This document shows, piece after piece, positions 1,642 through 20,454 of a stretch of DNA of 21,256 bases (within the stretch, counting starts at the first letter, position 1; each line of letters begins with the position of its first letter). Source of the DNA: a virus; the IMG/VR virus record IMGVR_UViG_3300032241_002568, positions 1 through 21,256 of that record, one strand, 5' to 3'. Position numbers and translations under genes: made by a program. A model generated the notes under the pieces. It ran no database searches, was not told the DNA's origin, and worked only from the letters and a program-made list of their open reading frames with translations.

Positions 1642-1806
1642 GTGGAGATCCGAGTAGAAAAAGAAACTATTTGGCATTTTACCTGCGGTAAATGTAAAGG
1701 CTGGTGGAGCATAGCCAGTATGGATGACTGGTATCCAAAAAAACTATTCTGCACACATTGTGGCGAACCCTGCTATAATATCGAAAAGAAAGATAAAAAA
1801 AACTAA
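1642..1806 (+). CDS. 54-aa zinc-ribbon protein
   Basis: A short gene starting with GTG, eight bases after a strong Shine-Dalgarno (AAAGGAG). The protein reads MEIRVEKETIWHFTC then GKC, GWW, and later CTHCGEPC. Two Cys pairs (C15/C18 and C37/C40) form a typical zinc-ribbon knuckle arrangement, with an aromatic segment (GWWSIASMDDWYPKK) between them and a Lys-rich tail. Small CxxC...CxxC proteins with HFTCGxCxGWWS are common in marine T4-like phages. Function is unknown; nucleic-acid or protein binding is the usual role of this fold. The following gene has its own sigma70 promoter, so this one ends the late unit. Confidence 0.8.
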   Translation: MEIRVEKETIWHFTCGKCKGWWSIASMDDWYPKKLFCTHCGEPCYNIEKKDKKN

Positions 1807-2607: not shown

Positions 2608-3784
2608 TTATTGCATTAGTAATCCTGCATTTAATGTAGCAGAATCAAATAATATTGCAGGTACAGGCGGCAATACAACTCTATATAAAACAGCTACACG
2701 TAATAATTTTAAAAATCATCTAAAGAATAACGGAACACTAATCAATATTACCCTTAAGGGAATTATCCCCGATTTAATAAACGGCTATTTTAAAAATTAT
2801 CAAGTAAATTGGATACACCTAATGGATAATATTGATATATGGCCTTACAACACCTGTATTTTTTCTGTCAGCAAAACTCCCCGAAATTCGCCTCCGGTGA
2901 TTCTTGGCGGACTTGCTGCTAAAATATATAGCCCAATACCTTCTGATTGTTTTGATTTCGTTTATTATAGCGGAAGTAACAATGGAATGAATAAAAAGTT
3001 CGGACCAAATAAGAAAAATAGGGTAATTAGACAACTTCCCGGAAAAGGTAGAGATACTGCGTCATATGATTATACAGACGAGGAAATTCCCAATGGTCCT
3101 AAGTTTGCGTTTTATACAATGGAGAGTCGTAAAAGTTATTTGGTAACTTCAGATCCTGTATATGGAGGTACTATCTGTTATGTTCCTTTTTCTACAGAAG
3201 AAGAAGCTAAAAAACTAAAACTTTTTGTAGAAAAAAATCCTGTATTTTCTGAATATGTAAAACGTATGAAATTTCGAGGCCATGCATTTGGATTGCGCAA
3301 TATGCGCAAATTTGATATAAATCAAATCGAAACAGGATTAGAAATTCCTAAAGAATGGAATATTACTGACGAAGATATGATGTCTCCGATAAAATTTGAA
3401 AATGACACGATCGAAGATCGTAGCCGTGTTAAAGGATTTGGGGAGGTTTTTACTCCTACTAATTTAGTAAAATTTGTTTTAGATCTTCTGGAAAAATATG
3501 ACCCTAACTCATTAAAAAATCCAGAAAATACATTTATAGATTCAATGTGCGGAAATGGTCAATTTTTAAAAGAATTTTTAGAGCGTAAAAAAATACATGG
3601 GTCAACAGTCGAACAAGCGTTGTCAACAATCTATGGTGTGGAAATTATGCAGAATAATGTAAATTTATGTCGTGAAAGACTTCTTTCTGGTCAAGAATCT
3701 TTTCAAAATATTGTAGAAAGAAATATTATATGTGCTGACGCATTAACTTATGATTATAATTTTAAAGAATTTGAAGTATTATAA
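2597..3784 (+). CDS. N6-adenine DNA methyltransferase with circularly permuted motif order
   Basis: Start chosen at TTG 2597: AAGGAG at 2584-2589 sits seven bases upstream, whereas the earlier in-frame ATG (2576) has no Shine-Dalgarno and adds only MRLRRKI. The 395-aa protein begins at catalytic motif IV (residues 5-13, YCISNPAFN). The SAM-binding half comes last: motif X (about 280-287, GFGEVFTP), motif I (313-323, FIDSMCGNGQF), motif II (GVE, 347-349) and motif III (ICADAL, about 378-383). The end, FKEFEVL, is what normally precedes NPPY, so the protein is a clean permutation (IV first, I-III last; beta-class order). Motif IV reads NPAF, with Ala replacing the second Pro of NPPY/NPPF. It overlaps the nuclease gene and likely protects against it. 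Confidence 0.8.
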   Translation: MEFDYCISNPAFNVAESNNIAGTGGNTTLYKTATRNNFKNHLKNNGTLINITLKGIIPDLINGYFKNYQVNWIHLMDNIDIWPYNTCIFSVSKTPRNSPPVILGGLAAKIYSPIPSDCFDFVYYSGSNNGMNKKFGPNKKNRVIRQLPGKGRDTASYDYTDEEIPNGPKFAFYTMESRKSYLVTSDPVYGGTICYVPFSTEEEAKKLKLFVEKNPVFSEYVKRMKFRGHAFGLRNMRKFDINQIETGLEIPKEWNITDEDMMSPIKFENDTIEDRSRVKGFGEVFTPTNLVKFVLDLLEKYDPNSLKNPENTFIDSMCGNGQFLKEFLERKKIHGSTVEQALSTIYGVEIMQNNVNLCRERLLSGQESFQNIVERNIICADALTYDYNFKEFEVL

Positions 3785-3787
3785 ATA
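3780..3787 (+). promoter_or_regulatory. T4-type late promoter TATAAATA driving the tmRNA
   Basis: Exact TATAAATA overlapping the methyltransferase stop codon. T4 spacing predicts +1 at A3793, three bases before the first paired base of the tmRNA acceptor piece (G3796). With the terminator at 4084-4114 this makes the tmRNA an independent late transcript. Confidence 0.65.
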
Positions 3788-3792
3788 AATTT

Positions 3793-4083
3793 AATGGTAG
3801 TAAACTTTTAACTAAAGGTGTTTTGGATCCGGGTGCGATTCCCGGCATCTCCACCAAATTAAGGGAACTGGAAACTTGTAATCTCCAGTTTTAAACGAAG
3901 AGACTTCTCTCGCCCACTATGGGGATGATCAGTTTCGACAGAGCAAGTAATAACCTAAAAGCTACCGGTGAGATGACTGACCTAATCAGCATAAAAACGT
4001 AAATGCAAACGATAACGCATACGCATTAGCAGCCTAAAAACTTCTATGCCGAGGTAGGAAACACCTTGTTAAATAAGACACCT
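3793..4083 (+). ncRNA. ssrA: Two-piece (circularly permuted) tmRNA, tag ANDNAYALAA
   Basis: The acceptor piece comes first. It has a T arm with stem CCGGG/CCCGG (3829-3833/3841-3845) and loop TGCGATT, then acceptor strand CATCTCC (3846-3852), discriminator A and encoded CCA (3854-3856). A 64-nt intervening segment with a 7-bp hairpin (AACTGGA/TCCAGTT) follows. The coding piece starts GGGGATG at 3921 and pairs with CATCTCC in seven base pairs; the third pair is G-U, the alanine identity element. The D-loop region is GATCAGTTTCGACAG. The long P2-type helix joins the pieces: CTACC/GGTAG, AAAAG/CTTTT and ACCT/AGGT (3953-3966 with 3796-3819). The tag frame 4005-4037 reads ANDNAYALAA then TAA. Both ends of the mature pieces are approximate. 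It rescues stalled ribosomes and marks the chain for proteases such as ClpXP. Confidence 0.93.
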
Positions 4084-4114
4084 GCTAGAGACTTCGGTCT
4101 CTAGCATTTTTATT
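4084..4114 (+). terminator. Rho-independent terminator of the tmRNA
   Basis: A perfect 9-bp stem GCTAGAGAC/GTCTCTAGC (4084-4092/4097-4105) closed by a stable TTCG tetraloop and followed by ATTTTTATT. It ends the tmRNA transcript 13 bases before the next ATG, so the following gene needs read-through or another promoter. Confidence 0.9.
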
Positions 4115-5850: not shown

Positions 5851-7041
5851 TTAAACTTTACCCCACTTAGCAATAGCTTGATGATATTCCTCTCCATATG
5901 TCTTATCAATAGCCTGACGCATAGCTTTAGCACCTGCAATAGTACCGCCCGGATGTCCGTGTACAGCACCCCCGGCATTAGCCAAATAATCAATACCAGC
6001 GATTTCGGTAACACGATCTACTAAGCCAGGATGCATCCCACAACTAAGAGCAGGAACTGTATTTCCGGCTGTTAGTATTTCAATGCACTGTTTAACTTCT
6101 TCTGGATCGTCATTGCTATATCCGCCTACCATTCCTGTTTGAATTGTGTCAGCACCCATTAATGTAGCCAATTGACACATTACAGGCCAGCTAATACTAA
6201 ATCTATGATTCTTATCTGTAGTTACTTTAGCACCACTACTCTGATAGTGTAGGTATAACGGTAAATCAAGTTTTCGAATACTGTTATAAGATCCGAACCC
6301 GCTAAACACATTAATATGCACGCCTGTTCCTCCTAATTCATGTACCCGCTTAACACGGTCAACTAATATATGTGGGTCGCAATTAATAGTGTGGCAGAAT
6401 ACAATCTTACGACTCTGTTTTGCCAAATAGTTAGCAATAATATCTACTCTGCGATCCAGCGGTGCACAAGCAGGATTGACCATGATCTCATCTTCCTTAA
6501 TGAAATCAACTCCGCCATCTACCATTTGTTTAACCATCTCCAATAATACTTCTGGAGTGATACCAATCTTAGGCTTAACAATACTACCAAATAATGGTTT
6601 ACCATATTGTCCGGTCATTGCTCTAAATCCTGACAAACCAAACTTAGGTCCTAGGAAATGTTTTGTAACAGTTTCAGGTAGTTCTAATTTAATCAATCGG
6701 CACTTAGTAACAATATCGATATCAACGTGGCCACCCATTAGTTGGCAAAGCAGATGGCTGATACCATCTGTGTCCCAATCTGTGTTTGCTACTGGAAAAG
6801 CAATTTCCACTGTGCCAGATGTAAGAGTTTTAAGTTCTTTTTCATCGCCTAATACAATGCAACTATGGTTTTCGAACAATTCATCCGTTTCCCATTCGTT
6901 GCGTACATTGGGGTTTCCTACACTTTGACCAATGGCTAAATTCCATGCTGCTTCTTTAAGATTAGCTGAACTGTACATATCATATGTGGCAATAAAGTAA
7001 TCATTTTGATTAATCTCATCTCTTGTTCTAAAGAACTTCAT
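5851..7041 (-). CDS. RuBisCO-like protein (form IV type)
   Basis: 396 aa from ATG 7041, which has Shine-Dalgarno AGGAG (7048-7052); earlier in-frame ATGs lie inside the cupin gene. Residues 1-125 match the RuBisCO N-terminal domain and 130-396 the TIM barrel. Kept: the K175-type Lys in SIVKPKIG (K156), the metal-site block FIKEDE (K182, D184, E185, equal to K201/D203/E204), H265 (H294), the phosphate-site SCG (333-335) and GG (357-358). Lost: loop-6 Lys (VGGYSN at 305-310 instead of VGKLEG) and H327 (Q301). It therefore should not fix CO2 but could enolise a related sugar-phosphate-like substrate, as known RuBisCO-like proteins do in methionine salvage or apiose breakdown. It is the last gene of an operon with a cupin, methyltransferase and nucleotidyltransferase. 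Confidence 0.9.
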   Translation of the reverse strand: MKFFRTRDEINQNDYFIATYDMYSSANLKEAAWNLAIGQSVGNPNVRNEWETDELFENHSCIVLGDEKELKTLTSGTVEIAFPVANTDWDTDGISHLLCQLMGGHVDIDIVTKCRLIKLELPETVTKHFLGPKFGLSGFRAMTGQYGKPLFGSIVKPKIGITPEVLLEMVKQMVDGGVDFIKEDEIMVNPACAPLDRRVDIIANYLAKQSRKIVFCHTINCDPHILVDRVKRVHELGGTGVHINVFSGFGSYNSIRKLDLPLYLHYQSSGAKVTTDKNHRFSISWPVMCQLATLMGADTIQTGMVGGYSNDDPEEVKQCIEILTAGNTVPALSCGMHPGLVDRVTEIAGIDYLANAGGAVHGHPGGTIAGAKAMRQAIDKTYGEEYHQAIAKWGKV

Positions 7042-7351
7042 ATTTGTCTCCTGGTATACTTGGTACTTTAACACACAATATCCGGCAGTCTTCGTGGAAG
7101 ACTGGATCAGCAACTACTCCAGGATCAAACCAAAATACATCACCGGAGTGTAATTCTTCTCCTGCAATAGTCATATGACCCTGTATCAATACATTATACT
7201 CTGTTCCAATTTTGTGATAATGTGCCGGCCACACTTCCCCTTTCTTATGAGTAAGTAGTCCAACTTCAAATTGATCAGTTTTAAGTACAGATGGTTCAAA
7301 ATTTCCAATAAACCATCCTCTAACAAATTCATTAATGTTTCGCTTTATCAT
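7028..7351 (-). CDS. Single-domain cupin
   Basis: 107 aa. A double-stranded beta-helix pattern is clear: HYHKIGTEYNVLIQG (about 43-57) is cupin motif 1 with the metal-binding HxH(x)E arrangement, and GDVFWFDPGVVADPVF (about 70-85) is motif 2 in which the usual His is absent or shifted, H87 following in HEDC. The protein could be an epimerase/isomerase, a dioxygenase or a sensor; the sequence does not decide. It starts just after the methyltransferase stop and overlaps the RuBisCO-like gene by 14 bases, so the products are made together. No independent Shine-Dalgarno is obvious. Confidence 0.85.
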   Translation of the reverse strand: MIKRNINEFVRGWFIGNFEPSVLKTDQFEVGLLTHKKGEVWPAHYHKIGTEYNVLIQGHMTIAGEELHSGDVFWFDPGVVADPVFHEDCRILCVKVPSIPGDKYEVL

Positions 7352-11503: not shown

Positions 11504-11901
11504 TGACCAATAAAATTACCCTAATTACCCCTCCGGATATCTACGAGAATGGAAACCTCAGTCTTTTGTTTATGCACATCAACGATCAAGATCAAGAAAT
11601 GGTAAGTCGTTGGTTGGCAGAAAGAGAATTATCCAGTAATATTAACTTTTACATTTATAATGGAGAAATTGATATTCCTTGGCTATTATGGGCCGTTAAT
11701 CTTTGCCAATACAAATATATAGATCTTGATTTAACAAATGAACTTTCGAAGTTAATAAGTAGTTATATATTAAGTAAAAATAATTTTTATTATAAAACAG
11801 CCGATGAAAATTTAGCTGCACTTTATAGTCATATTAACAATAATCGTGTAGTAAAAATTGAATCATTTTTAGAAAGGGCATTAAGTGAACAAAACAAATA
11901 A
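11503..11901 (+). CDS. 132-aa conserved phage hypothetical
   Basis: Begins in TAATG overlap. The start TLITPPDIYENGNLSLLFMH resembles a Rossmann-like first strand, followed by NINFYIYNGE and DIPWLLWAVNLCQYKYIDLDL, an alternating strand/helix pattern. I recall similar 'ITPPDI...LLW...' proteins in T4-like phages, of unknown function. It overlaps the clpX start by 17 bases, so clpX translation probably depends on it. Confidence 0.75.
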   Translation: MTNKITLITPPDIYENGNLSLLFMHINDQDQEMVSRWLAERELSSNINFYIYNGEIDIPWLLWAVNLCQYKYIDLDLTNELSKLISSYILSKNNFYYKTADENLAALYSHINNNRVVKIESFLERALSEQNK

Positions 11902-13114
11902 ACAGACCTGTGATTTTTGTGGTAAAGAAAAAGAATATGTAGGAAAACTAATAGTAGGCGAAGTTGCTGCAATCTGCAATGATTGTGTTTCTCTCTGTGT
12001 CGATATACTCAAAGAAGAAAAAATCAAAGATTTACCAGGAGATAAAAAGTTATTAAATCCTGTTCTGATTAAAGAATATTTAGATGATTATGTTGTAGGG
12101 CAAGAAGAAGCTAAAATTGCCCTTTCGGTCGCAGTCAGCCAACATTTTAAAAGAGTTAATAATCCATCTGCAACAATCAAATTAGAAAAAACCAATGTTC
12201 TATTATTAGGGCCAACCGGATGCGGTAAAACTATGATAGCTCGAAAGATTGCAGAATACTTAGGCACGCCATTTGCTATTTGCGATGCTACAGGTATTAC
12301 AGAAGCAGGATATGTAGGTGACGATGTAGAAAGTATTTTGTCAAGATTGATTGCTGCGGCAGATGGGGATATTGAAAAAGCCAGTCGCGGTATTGTTTAT
12401 ATTGACGAAATTGATAAGATTGCTCGTAAAGGTGAAAACGTCAGTATTACCAGAGATGTTAGTGGAGAAGGTGTACAACAAGCTCTGCTCAAAATGATCG
12501 AAGGATCTATTATGCGTATTCCCAGCACCGGAAAGCGCAAACATCCCAATAGTGACATGCAAGAAATTGATACCAGCGGAATCTTGTTTATTTGTGGTGG
12601 CGCATTTGTTGGGATTGATAAAATTATTCAACAGCGTACAAATGCTCGTGGTATTGGGTTTAATGCCGAAGTTGAAAATAAAAAGGAACACGAAAACATT
12701 TATCAACATGTTACTAACAAAGACATCATACAATACGGATTTATTCCCGAATTTGTGGGAAGATTTGGTTTAATAGCCAATGTCGATGAACTTACCGTAG
12801 AAAACTTGGTACAGGTTTTGAAAGAACCTAAAAATAGTGTTGTTAAGCAATATCAATATATTTTTGAATTAGATAATATTGATTTAGAATTTGAGGATTC
12901 TGCACTAACACATGTAGCAGAAAAAGCCAAAGAGCTTAAAACTAATGCCCGAGGTCTAAAGAATATCATTGAAAAGGCCCTATTGCCTTATCAATTTGAT
13001 GCTGTAAACCTTGTTGAGCGGGGCCTCAAGAAAATCTTGATAAGTAAAGACGCGGTAGAAGGAAAACCCGCCACATTAATCTTTAATAAAAAAGTGAAAA
13101 CAAACAATGGCTAA
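11885..13114 (+). CDS. clpX: ClpX, ATP-dependent unfoldase of the ClpXP protease
   Basis: 409 aa, close to bacterial ClpX (about 420), starting at GTG 11885 after AAAGGG. All functional parts are visible: zinc domain C9/C12/C31/C34, Walker A GPTGCGKT (109-116), Walker B IVYIDEID (170-177), pore-1 loop GYVG (142-145), RKH loop (218-220), arginine finger in FVGRF (R293) and sensor-2 ARG (R357). The IGF loop (257-259) that docks ClpP is intact, so it should work with host ClpP; no clpP lies in this window. It unfolds ssrA-tagged and other marked proteins. It overlaps the gene before by 17 bases and bS21 by 8 bases, forming one translation unit with the ribosomal protein. Confidence 0.96.
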
Positions 13115-13355
13115 AAGATATAGTAAAGAAACTGTAGTTTTACGTGGAAACAAAGTCATCGTAGGGGATATGCCTATTAATGCAGCTCTGCGCAAATTTA
13201 AGCAACGGGTAGATGATTCTGGTATTTTGGAAGAATTTAAGAAACGTATGACCTACGAAAAACCCACTGTTGAACGTAAACGACGCGCTGCTGCTGCACG
13301 CAGTCGATGGCTTAAAAAACAGAAAGAGTTAAATCAAATCGCTCGATACGATTAG
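13107..13355 (+). CDS. rpsU: Ribosomal protein bS21
   Basis: 82 aa. Residues about 24-72 (INAALRKFKQRVDDSGILEEFKKR, YEKPTVERKRRAAAARSRW) match bS21: the xALRxFKR helix, the YEKPTxERKR block and the Arg/Lys-rich C-terminal helix. It is about ten residues longer than E. coli S21, mainly at the N-terminus. bS21 binds the small subunit near the anti-Shine-Dalgarno and helps choose mRNAs; phage copies are known, including in pelagiphages, and are thought to bias ribosomes to viral mRNA. Its ATG lies inside the end of clpX. Several genes here lack Shine-Dalgarno sites, which makes a phage-specific S21 of special interest. Confidence 0.93.
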   Translation: MAKRYSKETVVLRGNKVIVGDMPINAALRKFKQRVDDSGILEEFKKRMTYEKPTVERKRRAAAARSRWLKKQKELNQIARYD

Positions 13356-13357
13356 CA

Positions 13358-13386
13358 TTGACAAATCATTACGTTGGCCTTATAAT
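13358..13386 (+). promoter_or_regulatory. Consensus sigma70 promoter, TTGACA-17-TATAAT
   Basis: Perfect -35 TTGACA (13358-13363) and -10 TATAAT (13381-13386) with the ideal 17-base spacer. The start would be near 13393, giving a roughly 19-nt leader with GAAAGG before TTG 13412. Such a strong host-type promoter suggests early expression of the exonuclease. Confidence 0.88.
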
Positions 13387-13411
13387 ATATCTTATTTGAA
13401 AGGTAATAATC

Positions 13412-13942
13412 TTGGCTAAACATCTGATGATTGATATGGAAACTATGGCAGTTTCGCCCTCGGCTGTAGTTCTGTCTTTGGGAGCTGTTCATTTTGATCC
13501 TTGGAGCAATGGTATCAAAGATCAAATATACTTCCGCATCGATCTGGATGATCAGGATAAATTAGGTAGAGAAATTGATCCCAATACGCTCGACTGGTGG
13601 GCTAAACAAGATTCTGCCGTCATGGAGGAAGCTTTTAGCCCAGACGATCGTATTCCTCTGGCAGAGGCTATAGATCGTTTTCATAAGTTTGCTTGGGGGT
13701 GTGATGCCTTTTGGAGTCACGGAGCTACCTTTGACTTGGTGATTATAGAAAACATCTATCGTCAACTAAATCGTACGCCACCTTGGAACTTTTGGCAACT
13801 GAGAGATACTCGTACTTTATTTGATCTGGGGCACGATCCTGATATGAGCAAAGAAGGCAAACATGACGCATTGCAAGATGCTATCCGTCAGGCTATAGGT
13901 GTTCAAAATATCTATGCCAAATTAAAGGTTAAAAAGAAATAA
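13412..13942 (+). CDS. DEDDh 3'-5' exonuclease, DexA-like
   Basis: 176 aa with TTG start eight bases after GAAAGG. The four acidic/His residues of the DEDDh family are in place: D8 and E10 (LMIDMETM), D108 (HGATFDL) and H151/D156 (KHDALQD). The segments LSLGAVHFDP, TLDWWAKQ and FWQLRDTRTLF are shared in outline with T4 DexA, although this protein is shorter (DexA about 227). It removes nucleotides from 3' ends of single-stranded DNA, or possibly RNA. It has its own consensus host promoter and ends two bases before a convergent gene, with no obvious terminator between them. Confidence 0.88.
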   Translation: MAKHLMIDMETMAVSPSAVVLSLGAVHFDPWSNGIKDQIYFRIDLDDQDKLGREIDPNTLDWWAKQDSAVMEEAFSPDDRIPLAEAIDRFHKFAWGCDAFWSHGATFDLVIIENIYRQLNRTPPWNFWQLRDTRTLFDLGHDPDMSKEGKHDALQDAIRQAIGVQNIYAKLKVKKK

Positions 13943-13944
13943 GT

Positions 13945-14364
13945 CTATTTAAACCAACCCAATTTCTTTCCTTCGATAACGCGCCGATCTGCTTCTTCTC
14001 TACTACCGGGTAAACGACTTGTCCAAATTAGTATTAGAACAAATAACAAACTCAACCCAACGATCAATTTCCAATTATGAGTAGTAAACCAAAGTATAAT
14101 TAGGCTACCATCCATACTGCTAAACATAGCCCATTTAGCCCAAGTTGGAAATACACTACGCTCACTCCAATTTTTGATTACTGGCCCGAAGAGTTTATGG
14201 TTGAGCATGTAGCTGTGAAAACGCTTGTTGCTACGTGCGAAACAGTAAGTAGCACCAATTGCGGGTGTACTCCAAGGAAGTCCGGGCACAAAGGTACCCA
14301 AATAGGCAATCCCCAAGCAGACCAGTCCTGCTGCAAACCAAAGTGTTTTTTTAATTTTTTCCAT
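13945..14364 (-). CDS. DUF454 (YbaN-like) inner-membrane protein
   Basis: 139 aa. The order FAAGLVCLGIAYLGTFVPGLPWSTPAIGATYCFARS...HSYMLNHKLFGPVIKNW is characteristic of the DUF454/YbaN family: a first membrane helix (about 8-28), PGLP-TP loop, second helix, FARSxxRFHxxLLxHxLFGP motif, then two more helices (about 85-118). The family is found in many bacteria and its function is unknown. Shine-Dalgarno AAGGG is upstream. The only minus-strand gene outside the RuBisCO-like operon; it is divergent from the gene at 14437. Probably captured from a bacterium. Confidence 0.85.
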   Translation of the reverse strand: MEKIKKTLWFAAGLVCLGIAYLGTFVPGLPWSTPAIGATYCFARSNKRFHSYMLNHKLFGPVIKNWSERSVFPTWAKWAMFSSMDGSLIILWFTTHNWKLIVGLSLLFVLILIWTSRLPGSREEADRRVIEGKKLGWFK

Positions 14365-14401
14365 GACATACCCTTTTGTTTATTTAACACAAATTAAATA
14401 G

Positions 14402-14430
14402 TTGACAAATTTACCAATTCAGTGTATAAT
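14402..14430 (+). promoter_or_regulatory. Consensus sigma70 promoter, TTGACA-17-TATAAT
   Basis: Perfect -35 (14402-14407) and -10 (14425-14430) with 17-base spacer. The start expected seven bases after the -10 is exactly ATG 14437. No Shine-Dalgarno exists, so the mRNA is probably leaderless. Confidence 0.88.
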
Positions 14431-14436
14431 CCTACA

Positions 14437-14709
14437 ATGAAACTGAAAAAATTGACCAAACAATATCGTGGACATAAACACTTTAAGTATTGTGATGAAT
14501 TCACATACAAGGATGGTCAAAAGTTTATGGAACGCCGTACGTGGTGTTGGGAGCAATGGGGGCCCAGTGCAGAATTGGATTTGTGGCAGGGTGTGTTTGA
14601 TAGTCCCAGCAAAAACCCGCAATGGTGCTGGATTACGGATCAACATAGAATTAGAATTTATTTGGCTACTGATGCAGAGGCCAGTTGGTATGGCTTAAAA
14701 TGGAGTTGA
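14437..14709 (+). CDS. 90-aa Trp-rich protein of unknown function
   Basis: Start chosen at ATG 14437, which lies at the predicted +1; the in-frame ATG at 14422 is inside the promoter and cannot be transcribed from it. The protein has a basic start (MKLKKLTKQYRGHKHF), then a domain rich in Trp, Tyr and acidic residues (TWCWEQWGPSAELDLWQGVF; NPQWCWITDQHRIRIYLATDAEASWYGLKWS). It looks beta-rich. No family recognised. It is the first gene of a run of eight small overlapping or closely spaced genes up to dnaK. Confidence 0.75.
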   Translation: MKLKKLTKQYRGHKHFKYCDEFTYKDGQKFMERRTWCWEQWGPSAELDLWQGVFDSPSKNPQWCWITDQHRIRIYLATDAEASWYGLKWS

Positions 14710-14710
14710 T

Positions 14711-15529
14711 ATGAAAATTAGTCTTGTAAGTGATCTTCATTTGGAATTTGGCTATCAGGAACTACCTGGTGGTGAGGTACTAATTTTGGCTGGCGATATT
14801 GCCGAAGCTCGTAGCATACAACGACACCACCATGAAACTAAACTAGTATCAGACTCTCCTAATGAGAAATATCGTTGCTCGGAGTTCTTTGCACACGAAT
14901 GTAAGAAGTATGACCGGGTGTTTTATGTTATGGGAAATCACGAACACTATCATGGTAAATTTCGGGATACTTACGATACACTTAAGTACATGATGCCCGA
15001 TAATGTTACTCTTTTGGAAGATGAAGCATTAGAATACAATGGTGTCCTATTCTTAGGTGCTACGCTGTGGACCGATCTCAATCGGCGTAATCCCATTACG
15101 GCCTATCATCTTAAAGATGGTATGAATGATTATCACGTGATCATGCATCGCAGCGATGGGCCAAATACTTCGTATAACAAACTACGTCCTGAGTATACCT
15201 GCGGAGTACATGAAAAAACTCTACAATATTTTCAAATTGTGTTGAGCGAGAATCGTGATAAACCTGTGGTAGTTATTACTCATCATGCTCCCAGTTTCGA
15301 AAGCGTGGATGATAAGTACCGCCATGATTATCATATGAATGGAGGTTATGCCAGCGATCTCAGTGAGTGGGTTCTCAACAACGAGAATATTAAATATTGG
15401 GTTCATGGCCATATGCATAATCCTGTTGATTATATGATCGGAAACACTCGTGTATTGAGCAATCCTCGAGGGTACGTTGGTTACGAAGATAACAATGGGT
15501 TTGATCCTAATTTTAACTTTGAGATTTAA
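14711..15529 (+). CDS. Calcineurin-like metallophosphoesterase
   Basis: 272 aa. The five metallophosphoesterase blocks are present in order: D8-x-H10 (SDLHLE), GD at 28-29 (LILAGDI), GNHE (75-78), the ITHH block (about 194-197) and GHMH near 239. These bind two metal ions and hydrolyse phosphomono- or diesters; the closest functional class by size could be a nucleotide or protein phosphatase or a phosphodiesterase, not decided by sequence. An insert with a cluster of His (RHHHETK) follows the second block. It starts one base after the previous stop with GGAG inside the preceding gene as Shine-Dalgarno. Confidence 0.9.
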   Translation: MKISLVSDLHLEFGYQELPGGEVLILAGDIAEARSIQRHHHETKLVSDSPNEKYRCSEFFAHECKKYDRVFYVMGNHEHYHGKFRDTYDTLKYMMPDNVTLLEDEALEYNGVLFLGATLWTDLNRRNPITAYHLKDGMNDYHVIMHRSDGPNTSYNKLRPEYTCGVHEKTLQYFQIVLSENRDKPVVVITHHAPSFESVDDKYRHDYHMNGGYASDLSEWVLNNENIKYWVHGHMHNPVDYMIGNTRVLSNPRGYVGYEDNNGFDPNFNFEI

Positions 15530-15531
15530 TT

Positions 15532-15675
15532 ATGAAACAAAAAGTAGTAGATATTAAAACTTATCGTGATCGTAAGCTGCTAAAAGAAGCAGTCAATAAA
15601 AAAGTCGTGATCTTTTATCCAAAGATATATCTTAAGGATGTGCAGTGGACATTAGAAAAGCCACCTACAAAATAA
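15532..15675 (+). CDS. 47-aa basic protein of unknown function
   Basis: Short frame starting two bases after the metallophosphoesterase stop. It reads MKQKVVDIKTYRDRKLLKEA then VNKKVVIFYPKIYLKDVQWTL, ending in KPPTK. A charged helix is followed by a strand-like stretch. No family recognised. Support comes from its exact packing in the gene chain and overlap with the next gene by 31 bases; no clear Shine-Dalgarno. Confidence 0.55.
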   Translation: MKQKVVDIKTYRDRKLLKEAVNKKVVIFYPKIYLKDVQWTLEKPPTK

Positions 15676-15890
15676 CTTTAGTAGAAGTTGGGTACCTAAA
15701 TAATAAAAAGCCCGGAGTGCTGATCGAATTTCCAGATTGGGGTGAATGGGGAACTATGTTAGAACCCAGTTTATTTGAACAAATTAGTGATTGGTGCGGT
15801 CGTAATCGTTGCGGACACAGAATAGCCTATGATGAATTTATATTTGATAATGAACAACAGCGTGCTATGTTCATATTGAGATGGTCATGA
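15645..15890 (+). CDS. 81-aa conserved small protein
   Basis: Starts at GTG 15645, seven bases after AAGGA (15634-15638), inside the end of the gene before. The protein has beta-like segments (ATYKITLVEVGYL; PGVLIEFPDWGEWGTM) and a helix (LFEQISDWCGRN), then IAYDEFIFDNEQQRAMFILRWS. It contains two Cys (WCGRNRCG). The style matches small proteins of T4-like phages, with no known function. ATGA overlap links it to the next gene. Confidence 0.7.
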   Translation: MDIRKATYKITLVEVGYLNNKKPGVLIEFPDWGEWGTMLEPSLFEQISDWCGRNRCGHRIAYDEFIFDNEQQRAMFILRWS

Positions 15891-16087
15891 AATATACGCC
15901 CGGTGAATCTTACGAACAATGGGCCGAAAAAGTTAAACAATATGAGCTTGGTAGGGCACTGATGCAAGTAGCACAAGGACAAGATCCTATCTTAGTTTTA
16001 GAAAAAATGAGTCACAGTATTGTAGAAAAAATGATGCATCCGTTGACACAGGCCATAAGAGACGTAGCCAAAAAGAGAGAAAAATGA
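15887..16087 (+). CDS. 66-aa protein resembling the glutamyl-tRNA reductase dimerisation helix
   Basis: Start chosen at ATG 15887 because it forms the ATGA overlap used throughout this gene chain; ATG 15881 would add two residues. The first half (MKYTPGESYEQWAEKVKQYELGRALM) is a helix pair; the second half (DPILVLEKMSHSIVEKMMHPLTQAIRDVAKKREK) resembles the end of glutamyl-tRNA reductase (HemA), which carries a LxxRLxxKLLHxPTxALR-type helix. Similar short proteins occur in T4-like marine phages. It lacks the catalytic part, so it cannot be a reductase; it may be a small helical dimer or bind the host enzyme. Confidence 0.65.
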   Translation: MKYTPGESYEQWAEKVKQYELGRALMQVAQGQDPILVLEKMSHSIVEKMMHPLTQAIRDVAKKREK

Positions 16088-16293
16088 ACAAACTAGATTT
16101 ACATGGCGTTAGACACGGTGAAGTTGATCTTATTGTAGAAAATTTCATTCTAATGAATCAAAATGATCTACCCTTAGAGATTATCTGCGGTAATAGTGAA
16201 CGTATGATCGAATTAGCCTTAATGGTAACTCGTAGATTAGGCTGCACAACTTCTACAATAAAATACGGTACTATAATTGTAAGAAACATATAA
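16084..16293 (+). CDS. Small Smr-domain-like protein
   Basis: 69 aa starting in ATGA overlap. LDLHGVRHGEVDLIVENFI (4-22) matches the opening LDLHGxxxxEAxxxVxxFI of Smr domains (C-terminal domain of MutS2), and LPLEIICGNSERMIELALMVTRRLG matches the second strand and helix. The usual GxG loop (HGKG) is here CGNS. Smr domains bind or nick nucleic acids, but the catalytic DLHG His is kept while the second loop is changed, so activity is open. It is shorter than a typical 80-90 residue domain. Confidence 0.7.
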   Translation: MNKLDLHGVRHGEVDLIVENFILMNQNDLPLEIICGNSERMIELALMVTRRLGCTTSTIKYGTIIVRNI

Positions 16294-16295
16294 TA

Positions 16296-16412
16296 GTGAA
16301 TTTTGATCCTACAGTAATGCAATCTCTATCCAAAAGTTTAACAGAAAAGCTGCTGCATCTCCTATATCTTGCGGATAGAAATCAACTTGACATAGGAAAG
16401 ATATTAAAGTAG
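16296..16412 (+). CDS. 38-aa peptide of unknown function
   Basis: GTG 16296 follows the preceding stop by two bases and the frame ends at TAG 16410-16412, directly against the late promoter of dnaK. The peptide reads MNFDPTVMQSLSKSLTEKLLHLL then YLADRNQLDIGKILK, one amphipathic helix. The piece SKSLTEKLLH again recalls the HemA dimerisation helix seen two genes earlier. No good Shine-Dalgarno, so the call rests on packing and on sensible amino-acid content. Confidence 0.45.
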   Translation: MNFDPTVMQSLSKSLTEKLLHLLYLADRNQLDIGKILK

Positions 16413-16420
16413 TATAAATA
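16413..16420 (+). promoter_or_regulatory. T4-type late promoter TATAAATA of dnaK
   Basis: Exact TATAAATA, abutting the previous stop codon. T4 spacing predicts +1 at G16426, which is the first base of the 5' hairpin shared with hsp20. Leader length to ATG 16477 is 51 nt. Confidence 0.7.
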
Positions 16421-16425
16421 ATCTA

Positions 16426-16471
16426 GCAAGTACCTAATGGACTTGTTAAAATTCTTACTTTTAAAGGAGAA
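16426..16471 (+). promoter_or_regulatory. dnaK leader RNA: 5' hairpin plus Shine-Dalgarno-masking hairpin
   Basis: Hairpin 1: stem GCAAGT/ACTTGT (16426-16431/16441-16446, outer pair G-U) with loop ACCTAATGG. Hairpin 2: TTCTT-A-CTT (16452-16460) pairs with AAGGAGAA (16464-16471) in eight base pairs with one bulged A and a TTA loop, so the whole Shine-Dalgarno AAGGAG is paired. The hsp20 leader (18399-18449) has the same loop, same masking block ATTCTTACTT and same order, but a different hairpin-1 stem. This suggests joint post-transcriptional control of the two chaperones, possibly by temperature or by a loop-binding factor. Confidence 0.75.
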
Positions 16472-16476
16472 CAAAA

Positions 16477-18366
16477 ATGAGAATGAAATCACCCGTTCTG
16501 GGCATAGATCTCGGAACCACTAATAGTTGCGTTGCAATCATCGAAGCAGGATCCCCAAAGGTTATTGAAAACGCAGAAGGTGCTCGTACGACACCCTCTA
16601 TTGTTACCTATACAGATAAAGAAATCCTGGTAGGAGCCAGTGCTAAACGCCAGGCTGTTTCAAATCCTAAGAATACCATCTACGCAGCCAAGCGTTTAAT
16701 TGGACGTAAGTTTACTGAAGAGGCTGTACAGAAAGATATTGACCTAATGCCCTACAAGATTGTAGAGGCCAAGAACGGAGATGCTTGGGTCAATGCTAAC
16801 GGAGAAGATTTAGCACCTCCGCAGATTTCAGCAGAAGTTCTTCGTAAAATGAAGAAGACCGCAGAAGATTATTTAGGTGAAGAAGTAACTCAGGCAGTTA
16901 TTACCGTACCTGCTTATTTCAACGATAGCCAACGTCAGGCCACTAAGGATGCAGGTAGGATTGCAGGATTGGAAGTCTTACGCATTATCAACGAACCTAC
17001 TGCGGCTGCATTGGCATATGGTGTAGATAAGCAGGATAAAAAGGATCGCAAGGTTGCGGTCTATGACCTCGGCGGTGGTACATTTGACGTTAGCATTATT
17101 GAAATTGCTAATGTCGATGGAGAGAAGCAGATCGAAGTATTGAGCACCAATGGTGATACATTCCTTGGTGGTGAGGACTTTGATCAACGTATTATGGATC
17201 ATCTGGTTGAGGAATTCCTCAAGGATACAGGTATTGATCTAACGAAGGATGTACTGGCACTACAGCGTCTTAAGGAAGCCGCCGAAAAGGCCAAGATTGA
17301 ACTATCCAGCAGTACACAGACTGATGTCAACCTTCCCTATGTTACGGCAGATGCTAATGGACCAAAACACCTTAATGTTAAATTAACCCGTGCTAAGTTA
17401 GAAAGTCTGGTTGAAAAGCTAATTCAACGTAGCATTGAGCCGTGTAAGACTGCTATGGCTGATGCTAAGGTTGCCCCCGGCGACATTGATGAAGTTATCC
17501 TGGTAGGTGGTATGACACGCATGCCCAAGGTACAGGAAACTGTTGAAAAGCTGTTTGGCAAAGCACCCCGCAAGGATGTTAATCCTGACGAAGCTGTTGC
17601 AGTGGGTGCAGCCATCCAGGGTGCTGTTCTTTCAGGAGATCGTAAGGATGTTCTCCTACTTGATGTTACTCCATTAAGCCTAGGCATTGAAACACTTGGC
17701 GGTGTAATGACCAAGTTAATTCAGAAGAATACCACAATTCCTACCAAGGGTACACAAGTATTCAGTACTGCTGAAGATAATCAGCCCGCTGTTACTATTC
17801 GGGTATTTCAAGGTGAAAGAGAACTTTGCCAGCACAATAAGCTGCTGGGAGAATTCAACTTAGAAGGTATTCCTCCTGCTCGGCGTGGTACTCCACAAAT
17901 CGAAGTTACATTTGACCTCGATGCCAACGGTATCATGCATGTTAGTGCCAAAGACAAGAATACTGGTAAGGAAAACAAAATTACTATTAAAGCTAACTCA
18001 GGCCTATCAGATGCCGAAATTCAGCAGATGATTAAGGACGCCGAACTTAATGCAGAAGAGGATCGCAAGCAGAGAGAATTGATCGATGCACGTAATTCTG
18101 CCGAAGCGTTGGCACATAGTACACGTAATGATCTAGCAGAAGTTAAAGATAAATTAACCAGTGATCAGATTAGCAAAATCGAATCTGCTATTAGCGATCT
18201 AGAAACCGCTGCTAAAGATACAGATCGTGAAGCTATTCAGCAAAAGACCAGTGATTTATTTGCAGCAGCACAGGACATTCAACAGGCCAAGGCCGCAGCA
18301 ACTACAGAATCCACAGAGTCAAAAAAAGATGACAATGTGGTAGATGCGGAGTTTACGGAGACTTGA
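16477..18366 (+). CDS. dnaK: DnaK (Hsp70) chaperone
   Basis: 629 aa, close to E. coli DnaK (638). It has the ATPase domain ([13 protein letters not shown] at about 9-21; [25 protein letters not shown]), the linker and start of the substrate domain ([19 protein letters not shown]), the beta domain with [20 protein letters not shown], a helical lid and the tail VVDAEFTET, like the conserved DnaK C-terminus. It is thus a complete chaperone, not a fragment. ATG 16477 is seven bases from AAGGAG; ATG 16483 is an alternative. It would need DnaJ and GrpE from the host, as neither is in the window. Controlled by a late promoter and a structured leader. Full dnaK genes are rare in phages. Confidence 0.96.
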
Positions 18367-18385
18367 CGTCGGCCGTGATTTCGTG

Positions 18386-18393
18386 TATAAATA
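18386..18393 (+). promoter_or_regulatory. T4-type late promoter TATAAATA of hsp20
   Basis: Exact TATAAATA 20 bases after the dnaK stop. T4 spacing predicts +1 at G18399, exactly the first base of the 5' hairpin stem, the same relation as in the dnaK leader. Confidence 0.7.
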
Positions 18394-18398
18394 TTTGT

Positions 18399-18449
18399 GT
18401 AGGGCACCTAATGGGCCCTACACCATGATTCTTACTTAATAAAGGAGAA
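18399..18449 (+). promoter_or_regulatory. hsp20 leader RNA: 5' hairpin plus Shine-Dalgarno-masking hairpin
   Basis: Hairpin 1: stem GTAGGGC/GCCCTAC (18399-18405/18415-18421), loop ACCTAATGG (18406-18414), identical to the dnaK loop on a quite different stem. Hairpin 2: TTCTT-A-CTT (18429-18437) pairs with AAGGAGAA (18442-18449), eight base pairs with one bulged A and loop AATA, covering AAGGAG. Conservation of loop and masking block while the first stem covaries is strong evidence for a functional RNA element. Confidence 0.75.
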
Positions 18450-18454
18450 ATATG

Positions 18455-18889
18455 ATGAATCAATTAGTACGGTTTGACACAAACGCTCTAAATAGAGCAC
18501 TTATTGGTTTTGACACATTGTTTGACAATTTCGAAAGACGGTTTGCCAATCAAATCAATACCAACTATCCTCCACACAATGTTCTTAGAATTGATGAGGA
18601 AAATTATGAAATTCATTTGGCTGTAACCGGTTTTGAGCCGAAAGAAATTTCAGTTGAACTTGATCAAAATACTCTTGTGATTAGAGGAGAAAGAGAAGAG
18701 TCGGCTACAGATGAGACACAGTATATTCACAGAGGTCTTGCTGCCCGTAACTTTACCCGAGGTTTCCTATTGCCCGATCATTTCGAAGTCGGGGATGCGG
18801 AAATTAAGAATGGCGTTCTTAAGGTTGCCCTTAAGCATGTCATACCTGAGGCTCTAAAGCCTCGTCAGATTAAAGTCAACGCACTTTAA
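18455..18889 (+). CDS. Small heat-shock protein Hsp20 (IbpA-like)
   Basis: 144 aa from ATG 18455, which has the same seven-base distance to AAGGAG as in dnaK; ATG 18452 is only four bases away. N-terminal part FDTLFDNFERRF (about 18-30), then the alpha-crystallin domain about 38-128: PPHNVLRIDEENYEIHLAVTGF, ISVELDQNTLVIRGER, and GLAARNFTRGFLLPDHFEV...NGVLKVAL, the conserved G-x-L motif. The C-terminus has RQIKV, an I-x-V-type tail (IKV) that binds neighbouring subunits. It holds unfolding proteins for refolding by DnaK. Hsp20 genes are common in T4-like marine phages. A stable hairpin follows directly. Confidence 0.92.
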   Translation: MNQLVRFDTNALNRALIGFDTLFDNFERRFANQINTNYPPHNVLRIDEENYEIHLAVTGFEPKEISVELDQNTLVIRGEREESATDETQYIHRGLAARNFTRGFLLPDHFEVGDAEIKNGVLKVALKHVIPEALKPRQIKVNAL

Positions 18890-18894
18890 CGAAC

Positions 18895-18923
18895 AAAGTG
18901 GGGGAGTTTTTCTCCCCCACTTT
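18895..18923 (+). terminator. Long hairpin between hsp20 and clpS, probable terminator or processing site
   Basis: A perfect 12-bp stem AAAGTGGGGGAG/CTCCCCCACTTT (18895-18906/18912-18923) with a TTTTT loop. The base after the stem is ACCAAA, so a classic T-run is missing beyond the three paired T residues. It may act as a weak terminator, as an RNA 3'-end stabiliser for hsp20, or separate hsp20 from clpS expression. Confidence 0.6.
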
Positions 18924-18939
18924 ACCAAATAGGAATATT

Positions 18940-19248
18940 ATGGCCACCGAAGATATTGTTATCGAAAAGAAAAAAGTTACATCAAAAGAACTTAAAGAAC
19001 CTCCTAAATATAAAGTTGTTGTGTTAAATGATGATGTTACTCCTATGGAATTCGTCATAGCTATGTTGATGTCATTATTCAAACACAGTCAAGATAGTGC
19101 TGTTAACCTAACAATGGAAATTCATCAAGAAGGTAGTGCAGTAGCTGGAATATATTCCCACGAGATTGCTGAACAAAAGGTACTCGATGCTACTACTATG
19201 GCTCGTAATAACAGGTTTCCTTTGATTTTAAAGGCAGAGGTTGAATAA
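18940..19248 (+). CDS. clpS: ClpS adaptor protein
   Basis: 102 aa from ATG 18940 after AGGAA; an upstream in-frame ATG (18898) falls inside the hairpin. The core PPKYKVVVLNDDVTPMEFVIAMLM (21-44) and HQEGSAVAGIYSHEIAEQKV (62-81) is ClpS: N30-D31-D32 with T34, M36 and H62 form the pocket for N-terminal Leu, Phe, Tyr or Trp. A flexible basic N-terminal tail of about 20 residues, which enters the ClpA pore in the host system, is present. ClpS normally works with ClpA, which is not in this window; the phage instead encodes ClpX. It may redirect host ClpAP toward chosen targets. Confidence 0.94.
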   Translation: MATEDIVIEKKKVTSKELKEPPKYKVVVLNDDVTPMEFVIAMLMSLFKHSQDSAVNLTMEIHQEGSAVAGIYSHEIAEQKVLDATTMARNNRFPLILKAEVE

Positions 19249-19268: not shown

Positions 19269-19808
19269 ATGAGTCTAAAAGAATTAACTAAAGATAGTCA
19301 TACTGCTGCTGAAAAAACTCCTTTTATGAAGTCGGTTTTTAAGGGGACAATGACTCAAGATATTTGGGCAGATTGGACATATCAAAAATCACTTTTTTAT
19401 AACGCAATCGAAAGTTCTGCAGATGCCGCAGTACTATTGATAGGCATGCACGATCTGCGAAGAACATTCTTATTATTGTCAGACTATAAGGCCATGGTCA
19501 AAACTGATACTGTAACTTATTACAAAAAGAGTGTACTCGACTACTACCAATATATAATGAACTTGTATCCCAATAGGGATCGAATTATGGCACATCTTTA
19601 TGTCTGGCATATGGGGGATCTTCACGGTGGGCAAATGATTAAGAAGGTTTTGCCCTTTAGTCACAAAAATTTAGAATTCGATCGGCCTGACTCACTTAAG
19701 AGCATGATTAGACAACAATTAGATGACAGCATGGCAGAGGAAGCCAATGTAGCGTTTAATTGGGCTATTCGTATGATGGGCGAGTATGATGAACAATTCA
19801 ACATTTAA
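19269..19808 (+). CDS. Heme oxygenase
   Basis: 179 aa. The proximal heme ligand is H11 in LTKDSHTAAEKTPFM (family pattern T...HxxAE), and the distal-helix block YVWHMGDLHGGQMIKK (about 111-126) matches the GDLSGGQ region of heme oxygenases. Length is a little short of bacterial and cyanobacterial enzymes (about 190-240). It opens heme to biliverdin, iron and CO with electrons from ferredoxin or another reductant. It overlaps the bilin reductase gene by 23 bases, so the two enzymes form a heme-to-bilin pathway. A host without phycobilisomes would have no obvious use for the pigment. Confidence 0.92.
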   Translation: MSLKELTKDSHTAAEKTPFMKSVFKGTMTQDIWADWTYQKSLFYNAIESSADAAVLLIGMHDLRRTFLLLSDYKAMVKTDTVTYYKKSVLDYYQYIMNLYPNRDRIMAHLYVWHMGDLHGGQMIKKVLPFSHKNLEFDRPDSLKSMIRQQLDDSMAEEANVAFNWAIRMMGEYDEQFNI

Positions 19809-20454
19809 TCAAAGTATAGATTGTGCATTAAAAATAAATGCACGTCTACGTAATAAGGGTAATCTTGTAGATCAGTATATAGATGATCGATACGGTATTA
19901 AAGATTTAGTTTATATTTCCTCTTGTTATCGTAGAGCACACGTTAGCATAATTGATGCACGCGAAACCAAAAAACTTTGGTTATTACACTTTACTATATT
20001 CCCCAATATTAATGATCCCAGTCCTATCTATGGATTTGACGTTATAGCAGGCCCTACCCGAGTCAGCGGTGCATTTCACGATTTTAGTGCAGGCGGAGAT
20101 ACTGCTCACCCCATGATGCAGTGGTTTTCTAACAGAACACAGGGATTAGAGTGGAACAAAGCACGCACATTGCCCGAATGGGCACAGAAAATTTTTAGTC
20201 CTAATATTGTAGCTATCGGTGCCGTAGGACCCGAAGAGTTAACAAATTTTATTGATTTAGGGTTAGAAACCTTGGATTATTACTTAGATAATGTGGGACA
20301 AAATACTGAACATGATTATAGCAGTAAGCACAATGAATATTGTTACTATCAGCGTCAAAACCCGCATACACCCCGTGTATTAGTTAATTTAGGTTTCTCA
20401 GAACAGCAAGCAAAGGATTTTGTAGAGAATAATCTATTCCCTAAAATTGCATAA
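19786..20454 (+). CDS. Ferredoxin-dependent bilin reductase (PcyA/PcyX/PebS family)
   Basis: 222 aa, starting at ATG 19786 or 19789 inside the heme oxygenase gene. Family marks are PIYGFDVIAG...VSGAFHDFSAGG (80-104), where D99 aligns with the central-sheet catalytic Asp of the PcyA family, and the C-terminal EYCYYQRQNPHTPRVLVNLGFS. The size is nearer to phage PebS (about 233) and PcyX than to cyanobacterial PcyA (about 245). It reduces biliverdin to a coloured bilin; whether phycocyanobilin or phycoerythrobilin is made cannot be read from the sequence. PcyX-type enzymes next to heme oxygenase are known from uncultured oceanic viruses, and this pair fits that description. Confidence 0.88.
   Translation: MMNNSTFNQSIDCALKINARLRNKGNLVDQYIDDRYGIKDLVYISSCYRRAHVSIIDARETKKLWLLHFTIFPNINDPSPIYGFDVIAGPTRVSGAFHDFSAGGDTAHPMMQWFSNRTQGLEWNKARTLPEWAQKIFSPNIVAIGAVGPEELTNFIDLGLETLDYYLDNVGQNTEHDYSSKHNEYCYYQRQNPHTPRVLVNLGFSEQQAKDFVENNLFPKIA

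Follow-up and report, generated by a model that had tools for sequence, protein, structure and literature searches.

Organisation of the tmRNA locus

The stretch of DNA analysed here, called the window throughout, comprises the 21,256 nucleotides of the IMG/VR viral record IMGVR_UViG_3300032241_002568. This freshwater-type phage encodes an intact circularly permuted (two-piece) tmRNA at 3796-4082 on the plus strand, the features of which are collected in Table 1. ARAGORN predicted one tmRNA* in the window, and two Rfam models matched it at full length and far above their cut-offs, namely beta_tmRNA RF01850 (3748-4106, 151.8 bits against a cut-off of 84) and tmRNA_permuted RF04321 (3796-4037, 138.1 bits against 47). 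A first-pass annotation of this DNA had placed the acceptor half before the coding half, read the tag as ANDNAYALAA and suggested a two-piece covariance search as a check; ARAGORN and both models agree on the permuted order, and the tag called by ARAGORN is identical.

Table 1. Features of the tmRNA locus and the linked clpX gene in the window
Feature	Position	Strand	Basis	Remark
T4-type late promoter box TATAAATA	3780..3787	+	exact box	overlaps stop codon of upstream methyltransferase-like ORF; predicted start about 3793
tmRNA acceptor piece	3796..3856	+	ARAGORN, Rfam, covariation, pairing	P2 5' arms, T arm (T loop TGCGATT), acceptor-stem 3' half, encoded CCA
Spacer, conserved structured RNA of 64 nt	3857..3920	+	conservation, folding	GGG/CCC closing helix around two hairpins
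tmRNA coding piece	3921..4082	+	ARAGORN, Rfam, pairing	acceptor-stem 5' half GGGGATG, D-loop-like GTTTCGAC, P2 3' arms, tag frame, 3' structured region
Tag reading frame	4005..4037	+	ARAGORN	ANDNAYALAA and stop
Intrinsic terminator	4083..4114	+	hairpin z -6.5	10-bp stem, TTCG loop, T tract
Phage ClpX	11885..13114	+	alignment	zinc domain, GYVG pore loop, RKH loop, IGF loop; downstream of tmRNA, kept in relatives

Several other genes of the window were noted. A RuBisCO-large-like protein of the form IV type (5851-7113, minus strand) lies with a cupin (7028-7351, minus strand); among solved sequences, RuBisCO-like proteins and DK-MTP-1-P enolase come closest to the former. The plus strand at 19269-20451 encodes a heme oxygenase and, after it, a ferredoxin-dependent bilin reductase of the PcyX-like type known from marine phages, for which PcyX is the best solved match (E 9e-44). 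We also observed a small GTG-start frame at 1642-1806 (plus strand) with two zinc-ribbon-like CxxC motifs, which is absent from the usual ORF list; the DNA around it is 86% identical to locus L121.

Structure and covariation of the tmRNA

The acceptor stem could be read directly from the sequence. CATCTCC-ACCA ends at 3856, with the CCA at 3854-3856, and GGGGATG begins at 3921, which gives the 7-bp stem with a G3-U70 pair and encoded CCA described in the earlier annotation, and a spacer of 64 nt. Among 122 distinct permuted tmRNAs, nearly all from phages, pairs 4, 5 and 6 of this stem each occur as GC, CG, AU or UA, and 117 of the tmRNAs retain the G3-U70 wobble. Since the stem is built from two separate pieces and covaries across this set, the window tmRNA is not a chance match. 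The multi-part P2 pairing was located as four blocks (3796-3801/3961-3966, 3805-3810/3956-3961, 3816-3819/3953-3956 and 3819-3825/3939-3945), the fold of the precursor beats 100 of 100 shuffles (z -3.9), and the tag frame ends in a ClpX-type degron (ALAA) and a stop codon. Judged by its sequence, the gene very likely specifies a functional phage tmRNA.

The T loop TGCGATT (3833-3839) carries a G instead of a U at position 55. The same loop was seen in 42 of the 122 distinct tmRNAs, a count that the scan pattern may bias.

Transcription signals

The exact late promoter and the strong terminator claimed earlier are both found (Table 1), the box lying at the right distance; its promoter activity is a prediction. 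TATAAATA occurs six times in the window, always on the plus strand and never on the minus strand, and its strand bias in 80 related phage loci is 68 against 7 (P about 1e-13). Among the upstream regions of relatives, 50 were distinct; 32% of these hold a sigma70 match of 10/12 or better (background 0.9%), and 14 of them a late box of at least 7/8 (background 2.6%). The promoter type thus varies among relatives, being sigma70-type or late-type, and the usual offset is constant: for 10 of the 16 relatives with a sigma70-type match, the end of the -10 box lies 9 nt upstream of the acceptor piece. T4 late and sigma70 promoters have a known spacing from box to transcription start, which for both types places the predicted start about 3 nt ahead of the acceptor piece. 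Initiation, and not processing, therefore probably sets the 5' end of the acceptor RNA.

These signals make late expression of the tmRNA likely. The claim that it has its own late transcript holds for the late box and the terminator; a separate transcript is predicted only, since no terminator was found between the end of the upstream ORF and the tmRNA (scan from 3500) and read-through transcripts are possible. In a related locus (L295), which has a complete permuted tmRNA at 1076-1340, a partial copy of the acceptor piece lies about 0.5 kb upstream of this gene, at 494-541, and runs into a hairpin, a T tract and TATAAATA; such a copy was also seen in L296.

Relatives of the tmRNA

The nearest tmRNAs are those of other phages (L030/L121, 86% over 285 nt; L043, 87% over 215 nt; L058, 74% over 222 nt), and in 300 genomes from the order of Gallionella just short conserved blocks match the window tmRNA. 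Capture of a bacterial host tmRNA was rejected because the closest relatives are phages and not bacteria. Members of this tmRNA lineage were found on contigs of 326,658 and 265,892 bp, which suggests that it belongs to large phages. We considered gp23 as a lineage marker and set it aside, as a complete match was obtained in one 322-kb record only and most records are fragments.

In a study reported in 2022, 53 of 133 unique phage tmRNA structures were two-piece, and 50 of these 53 were aquatic (PMC9004378). A phage two-piece tmRNA as such is hence an already known type. The earlier annotation regarded two-piece tmRNA as a bacterial trait and a phage copy as notable; the gene is indeed phage-encoded, but the surprise is removed by the many copies in aquatic phages (PMC9004378). 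As the clue to the host that it proposed, the tmRNA is weak, given that the nearest sequences are from phages, that the Gallionella-order genomes share so little with it, and that phage Melnitz carries a tmRNA from a lineage other than that of its host (PMC9004378).

The window tmRNA resembles the two-piece tmRNA of Betaproteobacteria (RF01850/RF04321) in piece order, G3-U70 stem, CCA, P2, tag frame and full-length match. It differs in being phage-encoded, in the late promoter abutting the acceptor piece, in the tag ANDNAYALAA and in the T loop TGCGATT. Like Melnitz, an aquatic myophage of Methylophilales, the window phage combines a permuted tmRNA with T4-like late promoters and an extra structured RNA linked to the tmRNA (PMC9004378). 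The tmRNA of Melnitz is of alphaproteobacterial type and follows an early promoter, with a glutamine riboswitch (PMC9004378), whereas that of the window is of beta type, has a late box, is linked to ClpX and holds a conserved element within its spacer.

ClpX and protein quality control

ClpX is an unfoldase that reads SsrA-type tags. In alignment, the window ClpX retains the zinc ligands, the GYVG pore loop, the RKH loop and the IGF loop, the last of which docks ClpP in ClpX generally. Among 80 IMG/VR records encoding a ClpX closely related to this one, 61 have a permuted tmRNA above cut-off, in each case upstream of clpX on the same strand and at a median distance of 4.6 kb. In the reverse direction, ClpX was found in just 1 of 50 tmRNA-bearing viral records, so that a general coupling of tmRNA and ClpX was rejected. 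As the link is one-sided, shared ancestry of one phage group is its simplest reading; the conserved neighbourhood of this group is compatible with a shared pathway and is not proof of it.

No SmpB (PF01668) was found in 46 related, fragmentary records, 8 of which have ClpP, or among the window ORFs, and host SmpB is therefore probably needed. It had been proposed that the virus brings its own ribosome rescue; the phage does supply the tagging RNA, and the SmpB that a self-contained trans-translation system would include is absent from this set. Beside the tmRNA and ClpX, the region 13107-19245 (plus strand) encodes ribosomal protein S21, DnaK, Hsp20 and ClpS, an unusually full set for protein quality control.

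A conserved element in the spacer

The two hairpins of the spacer are formed by AACUGGA/UCCAGUU, with an 11-nt loop, and by GAGA/UCUC. We compared the spacers of 116 tmRNAs. In the usual spacer, a hairpin, the two ends prolong the acceptor stem (AAAGCAYAYT...ARTRTGCTTT followed by TGAT); the window spacer is without this canonical closing stem. Among bacterial relatives, four of the five parsed spacers are hairpins of 30-31 nt, against a called length of 71 nt for the fifth (L284); as a bacterial control for the divergence of spacers, these five genes are a small set.

From one tmRNA to another, most spacers are unrelated, with a median identity of 0.56 at a body identity of 0.65-0.70. The window type, on the other hand, is 98-100% identical in otherwise unrelated phages whose tmRNA bodies share about 66-78%. 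Between the window and L303, 63 of 64 spacer positions are identical, against 45 of 68 in the acceptor piece and 84 of 127 in the coding piece, and the two contigs have no other DNA similarity; with L304 the spacer is identical at 64/64 and the body at 0.78. In IMG/VR the core of the element was found as spacer in L030, L043, L298 and L303-L307 and outside the spacer in L337, and each of the 10 viral copies, counting that of the window, is located within or next to a permuted tmRNA. The invariance of the core is partly by construction, since copies were found with an exact pattern; a relaxed pattern and a covariance model recovered no divergent copies.

The L337 copy precedes, by about 20 nt, a tmRNA whose own spacer is different, and it carries a compensatory change from A-U to G-C. 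This is the one compensatory pair, a count that shuffled columns equal in 75 of 500 trials. A weak, possibly decayed second copy (22 bits) lies upstream of the L304 tmRNA. The window spacer matches no Rfam family, and abiF RNA (RF03085) gave no match at E up to 10, so identity with abiF RNA or another Rfam family was rejected. The element was not found in 399 bacterial genomes of one order, in plasmids or in named phages, an empty answer of little weight.

The intervening segment thus has exactly the length given in the earlier annotation, and proves to be a conserved structured element instead of plain intervening sequence, which makes it the strangest portion of the gene. In the open literature we found no description of conserved or functional tmRNA spacers, and it is the conserved spacer element that is new in this phage tmRNA. 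As a separate observation, the spacers of L172 and L180 (91-92 nt) are 98% identical in tmRNA bodies that are 74% identical, and contain a tRNA-like T arm, GGTTCGATTCC.

Contents of the spacer slot in related phages

Relatives with the same acceptor-piece sequence as the window hold other contents in this slot. In L058 the spacer is an abiF RNA (41.5 bits against a cut-off of 37, E 2.5e-6), the antitoxin of AbiF/Abi_2 toxins (PMC12373285), which the window element is not. In L293, L297 and L299 just 4 nt (CCAC or CTAC) separate the CCA from the coding piece, and L292 and L294, of the same acceptor-piece lineage, have canonical hairpin spacers.

AbiF toxin is neutralised by abiF RNA in cis and in trans (PMC12373285). 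A search for Abi_2 genes, with a weak positive control, detected none in the 161-kb L058 and 87-kb L302 records, which are both fragments. In L302 an abiF RNA motif lies 20 nt after a tRNA-Ala. Among phage abiF-type motifs, 81 have ACCA upstream; 8 of these come directly after a tRNA or tmRNA end, against 1.9 expected in a rough test, which suggests that tRNA-type 3' ends may serve to release such RNAs. The abiF RNA motifs directly after phage tRNA genes were seen in L302, L342, L343, L346, L383, L393 and L410, with no long AbiF-like frame evident directly downstream. Small reading frames seem to be present in other spacers: MDDNLGSLAIGVVVVVVVFALVLL in L186/L243, where it has a ribosome-binding-like AAAGGAG, MKKLKEKFLTFIEMLAEALKGVGQSL in L301, and one of about 56 aa in the 183-nt spacer of L188/L242.

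Interpretation of the spacer element

The best explanation, to which we give a probability of about two in three, is that the phage tmRNA gene works and that its spacer carries an RNA cargo. The strongest competitor, which we consider unlikely, is that the spacer is just an aid to folding or processing, and that its identity reflects recent recombination between tmRNA genes via the CCA and GGGG that flank it and are conserved. Hairpins that extend the acceptor stem do make up most phage and bacterial spacers, other spacer families are likewise common to divergent bodies, and some shared spacers could have arisen by such recombination. However, intact relatives with spacers of 4 nt and 14 nt indicate that no such aid is needed, the canonical closing stem is missing from the window spacer, L337 has the element outside its spacer, and two crossovers within about 70 nt would be required every time.

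It is less probable still that the element regulates the tmRNA itself, as a riboswitch or protein-binding switch. Its constant linkage to tmRNAs, once from an upstream position (L337), would fit, and a glutamine riboswitch proposed for the Melnitz tmRNA is a precedent (PMC9004378). But the element lies mostly inside the spacer and would be cut off, it matches no known riboswitch, and relatives hold abiF RNA or nothing in its place.

A DNA-level mobile hairpin (REP/MITE-like) that landed by chance in tmRNA genes is a very improbable source. The element is an inverted repeat with a full copy beside the L337 tmRNA and a degenerate second copy in L304, but the 10 IMG/VR copies are all tmRNA-associated, there is one per contig except for the weak L304 match, one stem shows a G-U pair state, and the 399 bacterial genomes gave 0 copies.

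Least likely of all is a tmRNA that tags no proteins, being a decoy or a remnant such as an attachment-site copy: the CDS-less tmRNA-like RNA of phage DS6A inhibits host tmRNA (PMC11915505) and the window T loop has TGC in place of TTC, but the P2 is complete, the G3-U70 stem and the ALAA-ending tag frame are present with covariation over many phages, promoter and terminator are in place, many intact phage tmRNAs share the T loop, and the lineage is a long-diverged phage one and not a host copy.

Proposed mechanism and significance

For a working tmRNA gene with an RNA cargo, we infer a course of RNA processing, charging, host SmpB use, late tagging, ClpXP degradation and action of the free spacer RNA from the gene anatomy, acceptor-stem covariation, promoter and terminator signals, tag, and conservation and replacement of the spacer. 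Late in infection, the phage-modified polymerase would begin transcription about 3 nt ahead of the acceptor piece and end it at the terminator, and the precursor would fold through P2 and the acceptor stem. Host RNase P would generate the 5' end of the coding piece at 3921 and tRNA 3' processing would expose the CCA at 3856, and by these two cuts the spacer would be released. Host AlaRS could then charge the tmRNA via G3-U70, and host SmpB would bring it to stalled ribosomes, where proteins would receive ANDNAYALAA; this tag should be readable by ClpX, either the phage's own or the host's, leading to degradation by ClpXP.

The spacer itself would be a stand-alone structured RNA that is selected and moved between tmRNA genes, and the released RNA would act most likely as a protein-binding decoy or antitoxin. 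The spacer is somewhat more probably a functional RNA in its own right than not. In our reading, small functional RNAs would be carried as cargo in the slot of the excised spacer, and an anti-defence role is plausible for them; that the window spacer acts against host defence is a tentative proposal.

Phage tmRNAs are known but unexplained. The linkage of tmRNA and ClpX makes it testable whether phages steer tagging and proteolysis jointly. It is also conceivable, though we hold it with less than even confidence, that the spacers of phage permuted tmRNAs are a general cargo slot from which tRNA-processing enzymes release RNAs that neutralise host defence toxins, the antitoxin decoy abiF RNA in L058 and another class in the window being examples. 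If so, a single transcript would supply both ribosome rescue and anti-defence. Should spacers carry small RNAs, the thousands of sequenced permuted tmRNA genes would be an overlooked catalogue of short functional RNAs, and a possible new source of RNA-based anti-defence agents that could be found by excising and clustering the spacers.
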